Part shown: positions 384 to 8,799 of the stretch, one piece after another
Layout: each line of letters starts with the position of its first letter
How positions within the stretch are numbered: the stretch's first letter is position 1
Made by a program: the position numbers and the translations under genes
NCBI RefSeq assembly: GCF_017104565.1
Contig: NZ_JAAGPD010000005.1
Coordinates: 186,001 to 250,000 of the forward strand
Length of the DNA: 64,000 nt
Direction: 5' to 3'
Origin: Paraburkholderia sp. Tr-20389
GTDB taxonomy: Bacteria; Pseudomonadota; Gammaproteobacteria; Burkholderiales; Burkholderiaceae
The notes under the pieces: model-generated
Told to the model about the DNA's origin: nothing
The model's input: only the letters and a program-made list of their open reading frames with translations
Databases searched by the model: none

Positions 384-491
384 TCAGGCATCGCGGCTAG
401 CAGGCGATGGACGATATTTCTCACCTTTGTAACCTGCTATCTGGAGATCAATACCATTACCATCGGTGATTAACAGGCTTGCATCAAAGTA

Positions 492-504
492 CTGTGTACC
501 TAAA
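492..504 (+). repeat. CTGTGTACCNAAA repeat, copy 1
   Basis: CTGTGTACCTAAA, the first of four copies around the recombinase gene. It lies downstream of that gene's stop. The 279-base stretch 384-662 holds this copy and the next, but no convincing gene. Confidence 0.6.
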
Positions 505-594
505 AGGCCGTTTCCGATGATCAGCGTTTTGAAACCCTCACGAAGCTGCTGATTACCGAGGTTTGATAGGGCTTCCGCCGTGGTGCGTGGATAG

Positions 595-607
595 CTGTGT
601 ACCCAAA
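595..607 (+). repeat. CTGTGTACCNAAA repeat, copy 2
   Basis: CTGTGTACCCAAA, in the same orientation as copy 1 and 103 bases away, 56 bases past the recombinase stop. It differs from copy 1 only at the variable tenth base. Confidence 0.6.
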
Positions 608-662
608 ATAGAATCGGCCAGCTCTTGAGTGGTTAGCTTGGTTTGGGCGCTTCATAAGGCGA

Positions 663-1820
663 CTATGCGCGAAACTGCGCCTCGACGAAATCGGCCCAGC
701 TTTGCATTGCATATGAACCGACAGCGCCGTCGGATTCGACAACCGCCGCCTCTTCCCCCTTCGCGGACCGCACAAGCTCGCGCAGGTGATGCAAACCCGT
801 GCGTCGGAAATCGCTCAGCACAAAACGATCGACCTCCAACCCCAGCGTCTTGACGGCCTGATTCAACGTGCCTTTCGCGATCGGCCGGTCGTCGTCGCCG
901 CGCGTCGACGGAAAGACGTACGTGCGGCTGTTTCTCATGTCGCGCAACTCGCGAAGCATCGCTTGCGTCTGGCCGGAAAGTGCGATGCACCGCGCGCGGC
1001 CATTGCCGGCGCGTGACGCGGGAATCGTCCAGACGCCTCCATCAAGATCGAACTCGCGCCAGGTCGCTTCGATCAGCTCGGATTTGTTGGCCATGGTCAG
1101 CATGAGCAAATGCAGCGCGAGCTTCAATGGACGCCTGATACTCGACGTGTAGATTGCACGCAGCAACGCGCCGATTTCGTCTGCTGTCAGGACGCGCGTG
1201 CGCCCGTCTTGCGTCGCGATCGTGCGCGCTTCGATGGACTCGGCGGGATTGACGGTTGCGAGTTGCCGCCTGATCAGGAATGCAAACAAACGCTTCGCGA
1301 CATTGCGCGTCTGCAGTGCCATCTGCGGCGCGCCCCGGTTTTTGATCGCATCGCAGATGGACTGGATGTCTTTCGTCGTGACTTGCGCGATCGGCTTGTG
1401 GCCGATTGCCGGCAGGATGTCCTTGTCGAGCGCGCGCTGTGTCGTGCGGCGATATTCGTCGGATTTGCGGGCGATTTCCGAAGCCACGTACAGCTCGGCA
1501 CCGTCGCGCAGCACGTCGACGCGCTTTTCTGCTCCGCGGTCCTGCCGCGCAATCGAAACGGGCGACTGGCCCTTCGCCACGATTTCTGCGTACTTCTGAG
1601 CGCGGGCCCGTGCGACCCGCAATGACATCAACTGATAATCGCCGATAGTGACCATCGGCTGCCGAAGCCCGTCGAGCGTGTAGCGGAATCGCCAGACCTT
1701 CTTCCCGGTCGGCATTACTTCGAGGATCAGGCCTTTGCCATCAGCGACGCTGTAGCGCGTCGCACGCGGCTGCAAGGCGCGGATGTGGGATTCGCTAAGG
1801 GGCGTCGCGAGTTTGGGCAT
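663..1820 (-). CDS. P4-type tyrosine recombinase with degenerate catalytic site
   Basis: 385 aa, close to the usual ~400 aa of P4/CP4-57 prophage-type integrases. The N-terminal arm-binding domain (DUF4102-like, about residues 5-85) is well preserved (VADGKGLILEV, KVWRFRY). A SAM-like core-binding domain spans about 105-190 and the catalytic domain about 205-380. The motif that normally carries the first catalytic Arg (R-x-G/S-E-L) reads ANKSEL, with Asn245 in place of Arg. The HxxR box reads SDFR, so His becomes Ser336 while Arg339 remains. The stretch around the nucleophilic Tyr is shortened: Tyr370 sits directly before the WADF tail with no normal box around it. The family folds and binds DNA at att sites. 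This copy is probably unable to recombine, though it may still bind DNA. It begins 111 bases beyond the mnmE stop, on the same strand. Confidence 0.85.
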   Translation of the reverse strand: MPKLATPLSESHIRALQPRATRYSVADGKGLILEVMPTGKKVWRFRYTLDGLRQPMVTIGDYQLMSLRVARARAQKYAEIVAKGQSPVSIARQDRGAEKRVDVLRDGAELYVASEIARKSDEYRRTTQRALDKDILPAIGHKPIAQVTTKDIQSICDAIKNRGAPQMALQTRNVAKRLFAFLIRRQLATVNPAESIEARTIATQDGRTRVLTADEIGALLRAIYTSSIRRPLKLALHLLMLTMANKSELIEATWREFDLDGGVWTIPASRAGNGRARCIALSGQTQAMLRELRDMRNSRTYVFPSTRGDDDRPIAKGTLNQAVKTLGLEVDRFVLSDFRRTGLHHLRELVRSAKGEEAAVVESDGAVGSYAMQSWADFVEAQFRA

Positions 1821-1825
1821 GGCGA

Positions 1826-1838
1826 TTTCGGTACACAG
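1826..1838 (-). repeat. CTGTGTACCNAAA repeat, copy 3 (operator-like)
   Basis: TTTCGGTACACAG on the plus strand, i.e. CTGTGTACCGAAA reading toward the recombinase. It ends 5 bases before the ATG and so covers the expected ribosome-binding region. Confidence 0.65.
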
Positions 1839-1864
1839 GGCACGTGAAAAGCCGAGTTTACTAG

Positions 1865-1877
1865 TCTGTGTACCGAA
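1865..1877 (+). repeat. CTGTGTACCNAAA repeat, copy 4 (operator-like)
   Basis: CTGTGTACCGAAA, a perfect 13-bp inverted partner of copy 3 across a 26-base spacer. The pair brackets the place where the recombinase promoter must lie, as expected of an autoregulatory operator or paired arm-type integrase sites. Confidence 0.65.
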
Positions 1878-1931
1878 ATTGAACTGGTCGATCGTCGGAA
1901 TTTTCCGCTAAATGACGATGAAATAAACAAA

Positions 1932-3332
1932 TCACTTTCCGATACAAAACCTGCTGAAAATCACGCCGAGCAGATCGTCGGAAGTGAATTCACCGGTGAT
2001 CGAGTTGAGTTGATCCTGTGCCAGACGTAGTTCTTCTGCGAACAGATCGAGCGCTTGCGCATTCTGATCCGCATGTTCGGCGGCAAGTCCGAGATGATTC
2101 TGCGCGGCCCGGAGCGCAATGAGATGCCGCTCGCGTGCGAGGTAAACGCTCTCCGCGCCCGCCTGCCAACCTGCGATGCGCAGCAACTCGCCGCGCAGCA
2201 GGCCGATCCCGTCGCCCATCTTTGCCGACAGTCGAACCTCGCACAGGTCGGGCTCGTCCAGCGCGTTCAGCTTCGCGACGTGTGGAGCAACGCCCGTCAG
2301 ATCCGTTTTATTCAGCACGCGAACGACGGGTACGCGCTCCGGAAAACGCGCGGCGATCGATTCGTCGTCGCCCGTCATCCCCGAACGCGCGTCGAGCAGA
2401 TGCAGCACGACGTCCGCGCGTTCGATCTCACCCCACGTCCGCTCGATGCCGATCTTCTCGACTTCGTCTTCTGTCTCGCGTAAGCCTGCCGTGTCGATCA
2501 CATGCAGCGGAATGCCTTCGACCTGTATCGTCTGCGCGACCTTGTCGCGAGTTGTGCCGGCGATCGGCGTGACGATGGCGAGTTCAGCGCCGGCCAGCGC
2601 ATTGAGCAGCGACGACTTGCCGACGTTAGGCTGCCCAGCCAGCACCACGGACAGGCCTTCACGCAGCAACGCGCCCTGACGCGCCTCGCTCAGCACGAGC
2701 GCGAGACGCTCGCGAATACGCGCGAGTTTGCCGCGCGCATCGGCGGCTTCGAGGAAATCGATCTCTTCTTCCGGAAAATCCAGGGTTGCTTCGACGAGCA
2801 TCCGCAGCGTGATCACGTCTTCGACCAGCGCATGAATATCGCGCGAGAACGCGCCTTCCAGCGAACGTCCCGCCGAGCGCGCGGCTGCTTCCGTGCTGGC
2901 TTCGATCAGATCGGCCACCGCTTCGGCCTGCGCGAGATCCAGCTTGTCGTTAAGGAACGCGCGGCGCGTGAACTCGCCCGGTTCTGCGAGACGCAAACCG
3001 AAAGCCTGTCCGGCATCGATGCAGCGTTGCAGGACGAGCTGAAGTACGATCGGTCCGCCGTGCCCTTGCAACTCGAGCACGTGCTCCCCCGTGTACGAAT
3101 GCGGTGCGGGAAAATACAACGCGATCCCTCGATCGAGCGCGTTGCCGTTGCTATCCAGAAAGGGGACGTAGCTGGCATGACGCGGCGTCAGCGTCTGGCC
3201 GGTCAGTGCCTGCATCATCGGCTGCGCGGCGGCTTCGCCCGCGCGTCCGAACGAAATGCGCACGACGCCTATCCCGCCGCGGCCCGGTGCGGTAGCGATG
3301 GCGACGATAGGATCGGAATCTGTGGCGAGCAT
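1932..3332 (-). CDS. mnmE: tRNA modification GTPase MnmE (TrmE)
   Basis: 466 aa, normal length. With MnmG it installs the 5-carboxymethylaminomethyl group on wobble U34 of certain tRNAs. The N-terminal formyl-THF-binding domain (residues 1 to ~120, starting [19 protein letters not shown]) is followed by a helical domain that carries an inserted Ras-like G domain. Visible G motifs are GQPNVGKSS (P loop), DTAGLRE (G3) and NKTDL (G4). The C-terminus ends in the invariant FCIGK with the redox Cys. The ATG at 3332 fits family starts. It is a single gene with the regulator at 3679 diverging upstream. Its 3' end is a documented integration site for SGI1-type islands, and here a recombinase gene lies just beyond the stop. 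Confidence 0.97.
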
Positions 3333-7242: not shown

Positions 7243-8799
7243 ATGAACGAATTCTGGCAACACTGTTCCGCACTGCTGGAGCGTGAATTGACGCCCCAGC
7301 AGTACGTGACGTGGATCAAACCGTTGGCCCCGGTCGCCTTCGACGCAGATGCGAATACCCTGAGCATCGCGGCGCCGAACCGTTTCAAGCTCGATTGGGT
7401 CAAGAGCCAGTTTTCGGGCCGCATCACCGATCTCGCGCGCGATTTCTGGCATTCGCCCGTCGACGTCCAGTTCGTCCTCGATCCCAAGGCCGGCATGCGT
7501 GCGGCGCCTGCTGCGCCGTCGCGTCCGTCGCCCGTCGGGGCGAGCAATGCGGCTGCGGCCGTCGACGCCGCCGTCGGTGCCGTGCAAGCGGCCCACTCGG
7601 CGCGCGCGGGCGGCATGGCCGGTCTCGGCATGCCGACGAACGCGGCGCAATTGACCGACGATGCCGCCGACCTCGATCTGCCGAGCCTCGACGCCAACGA
7701 AGCCGCGGCAGCACGCCGCACCTGGCGTCCAGGCGCTGCCGCGCAGGCGGCAGGCGCCGAGAGCGATTCGACTTACGAGCGCTCGAAGCTGAACCCGGTG
7801 CTTACCTTCGACAACTTCGTGACCGGCAAGGCGAACCAGTTGGCGCGCGCTGCTGCGATCCAGGTCGCCGACAACCCCGGCATTTCGTACAACCCGCTGT
7901 TTCTGTACGGCGGCGTGGGCCTCGGCAAGACCCACCTGATTCACGCAATCGGCAACCAGTTGCTGATGGACAAGCCCGGCGCGCGCATCCGCTACATCCA
8001 CGCGGAACAATACGTGTCGGACGTGGTGAAGGCGTACCAGCGCAAGGCGTTCGACGACTTCAAGCGCTATTACCACTCGCTCGACCTGCTCCTGATCGAC
8101 GACATTCAGTTCTTTTCGGGCAAATCCCGTACGCAGGAAGAATTCTTCTACGCGTTCGAGGCGCTGGTTGCGAACAAGGCGCAGGTGATCATCACCAGCG
8201 ATACCTATCCGAAGGAAATCTCAGGCATCGACGACCGTCTGATCTCGCGCTTCGATTCCGGCCTGACCGTCGCAATCGAGCCGCCTGAACTTGAGATGCG
8301 CGTTGCGATTCTGATGCGCAAGGCGCAATCGGAAGGCGTGAATCTGAACGAGGACGTCGCATTCTTCGTCGCGAAGCATCTGCGTTCGAACGTCCGCGAG
8401 CTGGAGGGTGCGCTGCGCAAGATCCTCGCGTACTCGAAGTTCCACGGCCGCGAAATCACGATCGAACTGACCAAGGAAGCGCTGAAAGACCTGCTGACGG
8501 TGCAGAACCGGCAGATTTCGGTGGAAAACATCCAGAAAACTGTCGCCGACTTCTACAGCATCAAGGTCGCCGACATGTATTCGAAGAAGCGGCCGGCCAA
8601 CATCGCGCGGCCGCGACAGATCGCGATGTATCTGGCCAAGGAGCTGACGCAGAAGAGTCTGCCCGAAATCGGCGAGCTGTTCGGCGGGCGCGACCACACG
8701 ACGGTGCTGCACGCGGTGCGCAAGATCGCCGACGAACGCAGCAAGGACGCGCAGCTGAATCACGAACTGCACGTGCTGGAACAGACGCTGAAGGGCTGA
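7243..8799 (+). CDS. dnaA: chromosomal replication initiator DnaA
   Basis: 518 aa from the ATG at 7243 ([20 protein letters not shown], the family N-terminus); a longer reading frame upstream is not protein-like. Domain I (residues 1 to ~85) binds DnaB and DiaA-type partners. Domain II (~85-180) is an Ala/Pro-rich linker, long as in Burkholderia relatives. The AAA+ domain III has [10 protein letters not shown] (Walker A) and [10 protein letters not shown] (Walker B). Domain IV carries the DnaA-box-binding signature [15 protein letters not shown]. It opens the dnaA-dnaN-gyrB block, and DnaA boxes in the upstream gap imply autoregulation. Confidence 0.99.

Follow-up and report, generated by a model that had tools for sequence, protein, structure and literature searches.

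Why should one short motif, CTGTGTACCNAAA, be repeated around the gene of a degenerate recombinase? The question arises in a 64,000-nucleotide stretch of the Paraburkholderia sp. Tr-20389 genome (hereafter the window), where the original prediction saw four copies and read them as a dedicated binding site, either an autoregulatory operator with distal sites or arm-type att sites left from an island. All four copies are real (Table 1), although the fourth had been placed one base too low (1866–1878, not 1865–1877). The two copies at the start of the gene form the perfect inverted pair that had been described, with 14-bp arms at 1825–1838 and 1866–1879, and the gap between them is 27 bases rather than 26. 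The tenth base is indeed the sole variable position among the four window copies, but relatives also vary at positions 1 and 11–13.

Table 1 Features of the recombinase locus in the window.
Feature	Position	Strand	Basis
GGTT, second attR-like unit, 66 nt from motif	431..434	-	Spacing
Motif copy, second tandem attR-like unit	492..504	+	Exact match
GGTT, putative core-type half site, first attR-like unit, 67 nt from motif	533..536	-	Spacing
Motif copy, first attR-like unit, ~60 nt past stop codon	595..607	+	Exact match
Recombination-dead tyrosine recombinase, 385 aa	663..1820	-	Pfam: Arm-DNA-bind_3 + Phage_int_M + Phage_integrase
Motif copy, operator-like, 5 bases before start codon, inverted to next copy	1826..1838	-	Exact match
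Motif copy, attL side, predicted arm-type site, 77 nt from GGTT of mnmE core	1866..1878	+	Exact match
mnmE (trmE), target gene, last codons hold att core	1932..3332	-	118/118 genus genomes at E <= 1e-100
Attachment-site core in mnmE 3' end, GGTTTTGTATCGG on minus strand	1939..1951	-	Sequence

The whole genome (8,997,065 bp, both strands) contains five exact copies of CTGTGTACCNAAA, all inside 5.2 kb, and no exact match to the reversed control motif. Occurrence at random frequency, which would have refuted the prediction, was not observed. The fifth copy, designated W, lies 3.3 kb to the left of the window (G000:C60:182705). This exact count is a strong test of rarity, while a scan of the window alone with up to two mismatches is a weak one (four matches found against 1.45 expected, with 4 of 100 shuffles as high). 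The motif is also conserved with the gene in relatives, and the non-conservation that the prediction had allowed for did not occur: among 118 genomes of the genus, an exact copy was present anywhere in 40 of the 76 with an orthologue versus 5 of the 42 without (Fisher p ~9e-6). Orthologues were called from protein matches at E <= 2.9e-129; the same search found none in those 42 genomes, so the gene is dispensable. In a draw of 249 genomes of the family, a match at E <= 1e-60 occurred in 21 genomes from 7 of the 25 genera.

The encoded protein, which we take to be a P4-type tyrosine recombinase, has an incomplete R-K-H-R-H-Y active site, with only Arg-II kept among the six catalytic positions. 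We compared 51 dead loci representing 46 distinct proteins (four genomes, G019, G017, G047, and G037, are each represented twice, and L072 is a duplicate of L034), namely 41 loci, 15 from the window clade and 26 other dead ones, and ten more. L069 and L070 were dropped from later counts, their aligned proteins being identical to those of L014 and L018. L198–L207 were picked, one half because the gap ahead of the gene was unusual and the other half as further cases, and none for a downstream motif. Of the 118 genomes, 73 are presumed to have a dead gene; residues were read for 41 of these and for five further genomes. The catalytic tyrosine is absent from all 46 distinct proteins of the 51 loci, and Arg-II is kept in every locus. 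Arg-I is N, S, or G in all 15 window-clade loci and is kept in the 36 other dead loci. The tyrosine position sits in a gappy, fast-changing stretch of the alignment; a tyrosine occurs nearby in a few window-clade proteins (L008, L010) and is missing from their sisters. In a maximum-likelihood tree with a distant outgroup (G155, 36% identical, all catalytic residues kept), the dead copies form one group with support of 100/100, and the window clade forms another group.

Pairwise Nei–Gojobori dN/dS values, calculated with no tree model, are 0.07 (arm-binding domain), 0.12 (core-binding domain), 0.16 (catalytic domain), and 0.36 (tail) in the window clade, and 0.14, 0.17, 0.17, and 0.27, respectively, in the other dead clade. 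No internal stop was present in the dead-gene frames listed. The recombinase gene thus appears to be kept by purifying selection without catalysis (dN/dS of 0.07–0.17 outside the tail). A broken dead-type integrase lies in pieces beside mnmE at L120 (G008:C5:144398-151789), where the only motif found nearby has two mismatches; this copy is a gene being lost.

The integrase gene lies directly behind mnmE, 5–7 kb from dnaA (window positions 7255–8796). At the dead loci the two ends are ~1.5 kb apart, with the integrase gene alone between them and no cargo. By sequence, putative arm-type sites occur at both ends in the window, on the attL side at 1866 and in attR-like positions at 595 and 492. 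The latter two had been proposed as distal sites; they are two tandem attR-like units, each with a GGTT 66–67 nt on that the prediction had missed, rather than free-standing distal operators, and two such units are found in most window-clade loci. Counted on either strand, TGTGTACC is present in the 250 bp upstream of the gene at 15/15 window-clade, 24/26 other dead, and 8/10 intact loci, and in the 300 bp downstream at 15/15, 26/26, and 0/10, respectively. GGTACACA lies at or just past the end of the gene in all 51 dead loci. In the set of 41, the aligned part of the gene contains no TGTGTACC and the downstream copies share one orientation; in L014, one downstream copy falls inside the last codons. 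At 14 of the 15 window-clade loci (not L073), a TGTGTACC in the operator orientation lies no more than 12 nt from the start codon.

GGTT follows 65–67 nt beyond the motif in 52 of the 53 units of the 41 dead loci, and in 57 of the 58 distinct units of the 51 loci, which are related by descent and hence not independent. Among 14 four-base words at the GGTT offsets, seven never occur and the remaining words share bases with GGTT (AGGT 42, GTTT 22, TGGT 5, TTTC 3, CGGT 2, and CAGG 1). Conservation is 0.3–0.8 at most spacer positions and at all positions after GGTT, and 0.81 at the base preceding it. An A-rich stretch of the spacer, at 0.6–0.8 in the attR-like units, might be a host-factor site. 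The core-to-arm spacing of attL is 77–80 in 9 of the 15 window-clade loci (the exceptions being L018 with 104, three loci without an exact copy, and two without a core match), which departs from the 134–138 of 18/26 loci in the other dead clade and the 133–134 of 8/10 intact loci. At the far end of the 41 dead loci, the best 30-base matches to the full core are near the shuffle level and GGTT alone is recognisable. Because the full core is unreadable there, the label attR rests on the motif, GGTT, the spacing, and the intact relatives. A search with an exact pattern of the mnmE-end core returned one copy in each of 40 genomes; as this pattern required TATYGGNAARTRR and the attR copies read TATCGAAG and the like, it missed them. 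In summary of the dead loci, the arm site, GGTT, the spacing, and the arm-binding domain are kept, while the tyrosine, the cargo, and the far-end core past GGTT are lost, as expected if selection acts on binding and not on recombination.

Ten relatives with 52–57% identity have a complete active site with every catalytic residue kept; three are of the same genus (G018, G023, and G079) and seven belong to five other genera. In nine of them the integrase belongs to an island 8–17 kb long, with an attR-type unit downstream on the strand of the integrase. The far end of these nine islands reads [AG]GTACACA and then, 64–65 nt on, GGTT[ACT]TG[CT]AT[CT]G, which is a repeat of the mnmE 3' end. The bipartite pattern, searched in 22 genomes, recovered six of the intact downstream units and its form with AGTACACA added three; no attR-type unit was found by this search downstream of the intact integrase of G337. 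The last bases of the pattern kept it from matching the units in the window genome and in G051. The ten intact loci also have eight copies of GGTACACA within the integrase gene itself, at three places near codons 45, 75, and 110 (L106, L108, L110, L111, and L112), either as coding reuse or as extra arm sites. Intact relatives thus carry the same sites at both island ends, beside the mnmE 3'-end repeat, which gives good sequence support to the ideas of a dedicated binding site and of arm-type att sites left from an island. The inverted pair brackets the leader and could plausibly be an autoregulatory operator, but a consensus sigma-70 scan found no promoter in the leader between the copies at 1826 and 1866. 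Overall, the att-site idea was essentially right, and the stronger finding concerns the island itself: no cargo is left between its two ends, and its integrase is conserved although dead.

The fifth copy, W, is flanked by yaeQ and a glyoxalase-like gene, which are convergent. G075 has no integrase gene, and there the order after mnmE is a small ORF, a gene that we name LysE-like, yaeQ, and the glyoxalase-like gene; in G061 the LysE-like, yaeQ, and glyoxalase-like genes come after mnmE. This gene order places W outside the insertion. W is kept in all 12 window-clade genomes checked, exactly in 11 and with one mismatch in the twelfth. In an alignment of 11 genomes, selected for having W, its columns show a mean identity of 0.96 versus 0.42–0.52 in three non-overlapping neighbouring 13-base blocks. 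With two mismatches allowed, W was absent from the same junction in all eight other loci with both genes, four with and four without the dead gene. Other lineages carry X or Y in place of W. X is located between ABC binding-protein and permease genes in six genomes, and Y ~30–45 nt past the last sense codon of a GFO_IDH_MocA gene in 22 genomes (coordinates compared by eye). Both were discovered via the motif, which makes their loci a sample chosen for carrying it; Y was absent from 19 of 20 fetched Y regions, the twentieth being a known carrier. The distances from the integrase to W, X, and Y, all of them downstream, are ~4 kb, 75–78 kb, and 105–126 kb, respectively (coordinates by eye; for X, from four genomes with the integrase and X on one contig). 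None of the W, X, and Y sites read has a GGTT partner, and their neighbours suggest no common promoter role. Recurrent relaxed-motif matches ~39–55 kb and 480–545 kb away, and pairs 15 kb apart, were rejected as coding homology, since they fall inside coding sequence in the representatives read, in genes presumed to be mnmC-like, murD-like, and molybdopterin-oxidoreductase-like. Three intergenic places, W, X, and Y, were retained as sites.

The observed rarity, conservation, att geometry, residue loss, and low dN/dS underlie our explanation of the locus: it probably encodes a domesticated, recombination-dead integrase that is kept as a DNA-binding protein and would still dock on the old island ends. 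An island would have entered the mnmE 3' end via a P4-type tyrosine recombinase, and the ancestor of one Paraburkholderia clade would then have lost the cargo and the catalytic tyrosine of the integrase, leaving the gene with attL and attR in ~1.5 kb as the remnant. The four motif copies would be arm-type sites of the integrase, two in attL and the leader and one in each tandem attR-like unit. The N-terminal domain of the dead protein may bind an arm site while its core-binding domain holds the neighbouring GGTT core half-site, and a non-cutting complex on both ends could bring attL and attR together across the gene itself. By analogy with KplE1 IntS and MrpR, the protein may repress its own promoter. 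Selection would have retained the dead integrase for DNA binding, with the window clade adding one site between yaeQ and the glyoxalase-like gene. Whether this amounts to a non-cutting intasome that has spread across much of the genus as a part of the chromosome and holds the former att ends together beside the replication origin, with one extra same-side site per lineage (about 4, 75–78, or 105–126 kb away), and serves chromosome architecture or origin-proximal regulation, is a tentative extension that we regard as possible but doubtful.

Three other explanations were weighed. The dead integrase could guard the site, occupying the mnmE att site and the leaders of sister islands and thereby blocking entry as a form of dominant-negative immunity. 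Sister islands do share the arm sequence and the core, and among the matches listed for the 118 genomes none has both a dead and an intact copy of this family (intact in G018, G023, and G079; residues read in 41 of 73 presumed dead genomes), but intact islands are rare anyway (3/118), which makes this non-co-occurrence weak. Five dead-integrase genomes (G103, G104, G019, G017, and G060) carry additional DNA inserted between mnmE and the dead gene, so the mnmE site is not closed, and sites W, X, and Y would be left unexplained. We therefore consider a guarding role unlikely. A neutral relic, in which a collapsed island is still decaying and the motif and GGTT persist by shared ancestry only, would account for the lineages that are losing the gene, such as G008 with its copy in pieces and a two-mismatch motif only, and for the 42 of 118 genomes in which no orthologue was found. 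However, the listed frames contain no stop, dN/dS outside the tail is low, GGTACACA and GGTT are invariant across 57 of 58 distinct units, against 0.3–0.8 at most positions around them, and the fifth site W is conserved within a diverged spacer; pure decay is quite improbable on this evidence. An active or recently active island with a working recombinase would fit the sites, their geometry, and the Arg-II retained in 51/51 loci, but is hardly credible with the tyrosine gone from 46/46 distinct proteins, Arg-I also gone from 15/15 window-clade loci, no cargo between the ends, and a decayed core past GGTT.

A domesticated DNA-binding integrase has partial precedents. MrpR (YopR), described as the master repressor of the Bacillus subtilis prophage SPbeta, is reported to have a tyrosine-recombinase fold, to have lost catalytic residues and recombination, and to act as a repressor that binds a repeated, dispersed DNA element (PMC10516654). 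The window protein likewise has recombinase domains but is missing catalytic residues, as in an MrpR-like regulator. According to the same account, MrpR acts inside the prophage, consists of core-binding and catalytic domains only, and keeps the tyrosine (PMC10516654); unlike it, the window protein has an arm-binding domain and no tyrosine, and is found at its own former att sites in a chromosomal remnant that has no cargo. For IntS of the KplE1 prophage, the attL arm-type and core-type sites are described as overlapping the integrase promoter, and negative autoregulation was measured (PMC2951348). The motif sites here bracket the integrase leader, where the consensus scan found no promoter, and autoregulation may occur by analogy. 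IntS is presented as the active recombinase of a tRNA-inserted prophage, unlike the dead integrase (PMC2951348). SGI1-type islands are reported to use the same target, the 3' end of trmE/mnmE, and SGI1 variants to be mobilizable and to spread antibiotic resistance (PMC8409611); the present family is likened to them by its target site. No publication about this dead integrase emerged from the open-access literature with the terms used.

Recombinases that became regulators seldom come with a readable history, and here the path is visible in one family. Sister lineages have island-borne integrases with full att sites; one clade lost catalysis, after which the binding half of the protein and its sites were long retained while the cutting half decayed. 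This is a natural experiment that separates arm and core binding from recombination, and dozens of species are available for testing what the dead integrase does for its host.

Several minor observations concern the islands and inserts at mnmE. Nine mnmE 3'-end islands of 8–17 kb in Burkholderiaceae (L186–L191 and L194–L196) differ in cargo, which across the three sampled includes AlpA with DUF3987, Fic, and a second integrase. P4-like satellites are recognised by an AlpA regulator and a primase-type gene beside int. The G227 island carries Phage_AlpA and DUF3987, and neither was matched by the genes scanned from G292 (three) and G150 (one). The inserts between mnmE and the dead gene in L198, L199, L200, L201, and L203 are ~1.3–1.5 kb long with a similar ORF each; part of the ORF in L201 matches Bro-N, and for the other inserts the ORFs were compared by eye. 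Short fragments resembling integrases are present as well in L199 and L201, and an ORF similar to those of the inserts follows mnmE in G076 and G071 (L121 and L124). Counting against the att-site evidence, the bipartite pattern also matched elsewhere in G337, G133, G020, and G093, plus twice in G007, where two further motif–GGTT units lie far from the integrase (L192, G007:C4:128500-130800; L193, G007:C4:176500-180500). One of the extra G007 units is just downstream of what is presumably a biotin-synthase-like gene, and the units at L192 and L193 might be att sites of other relict copies.
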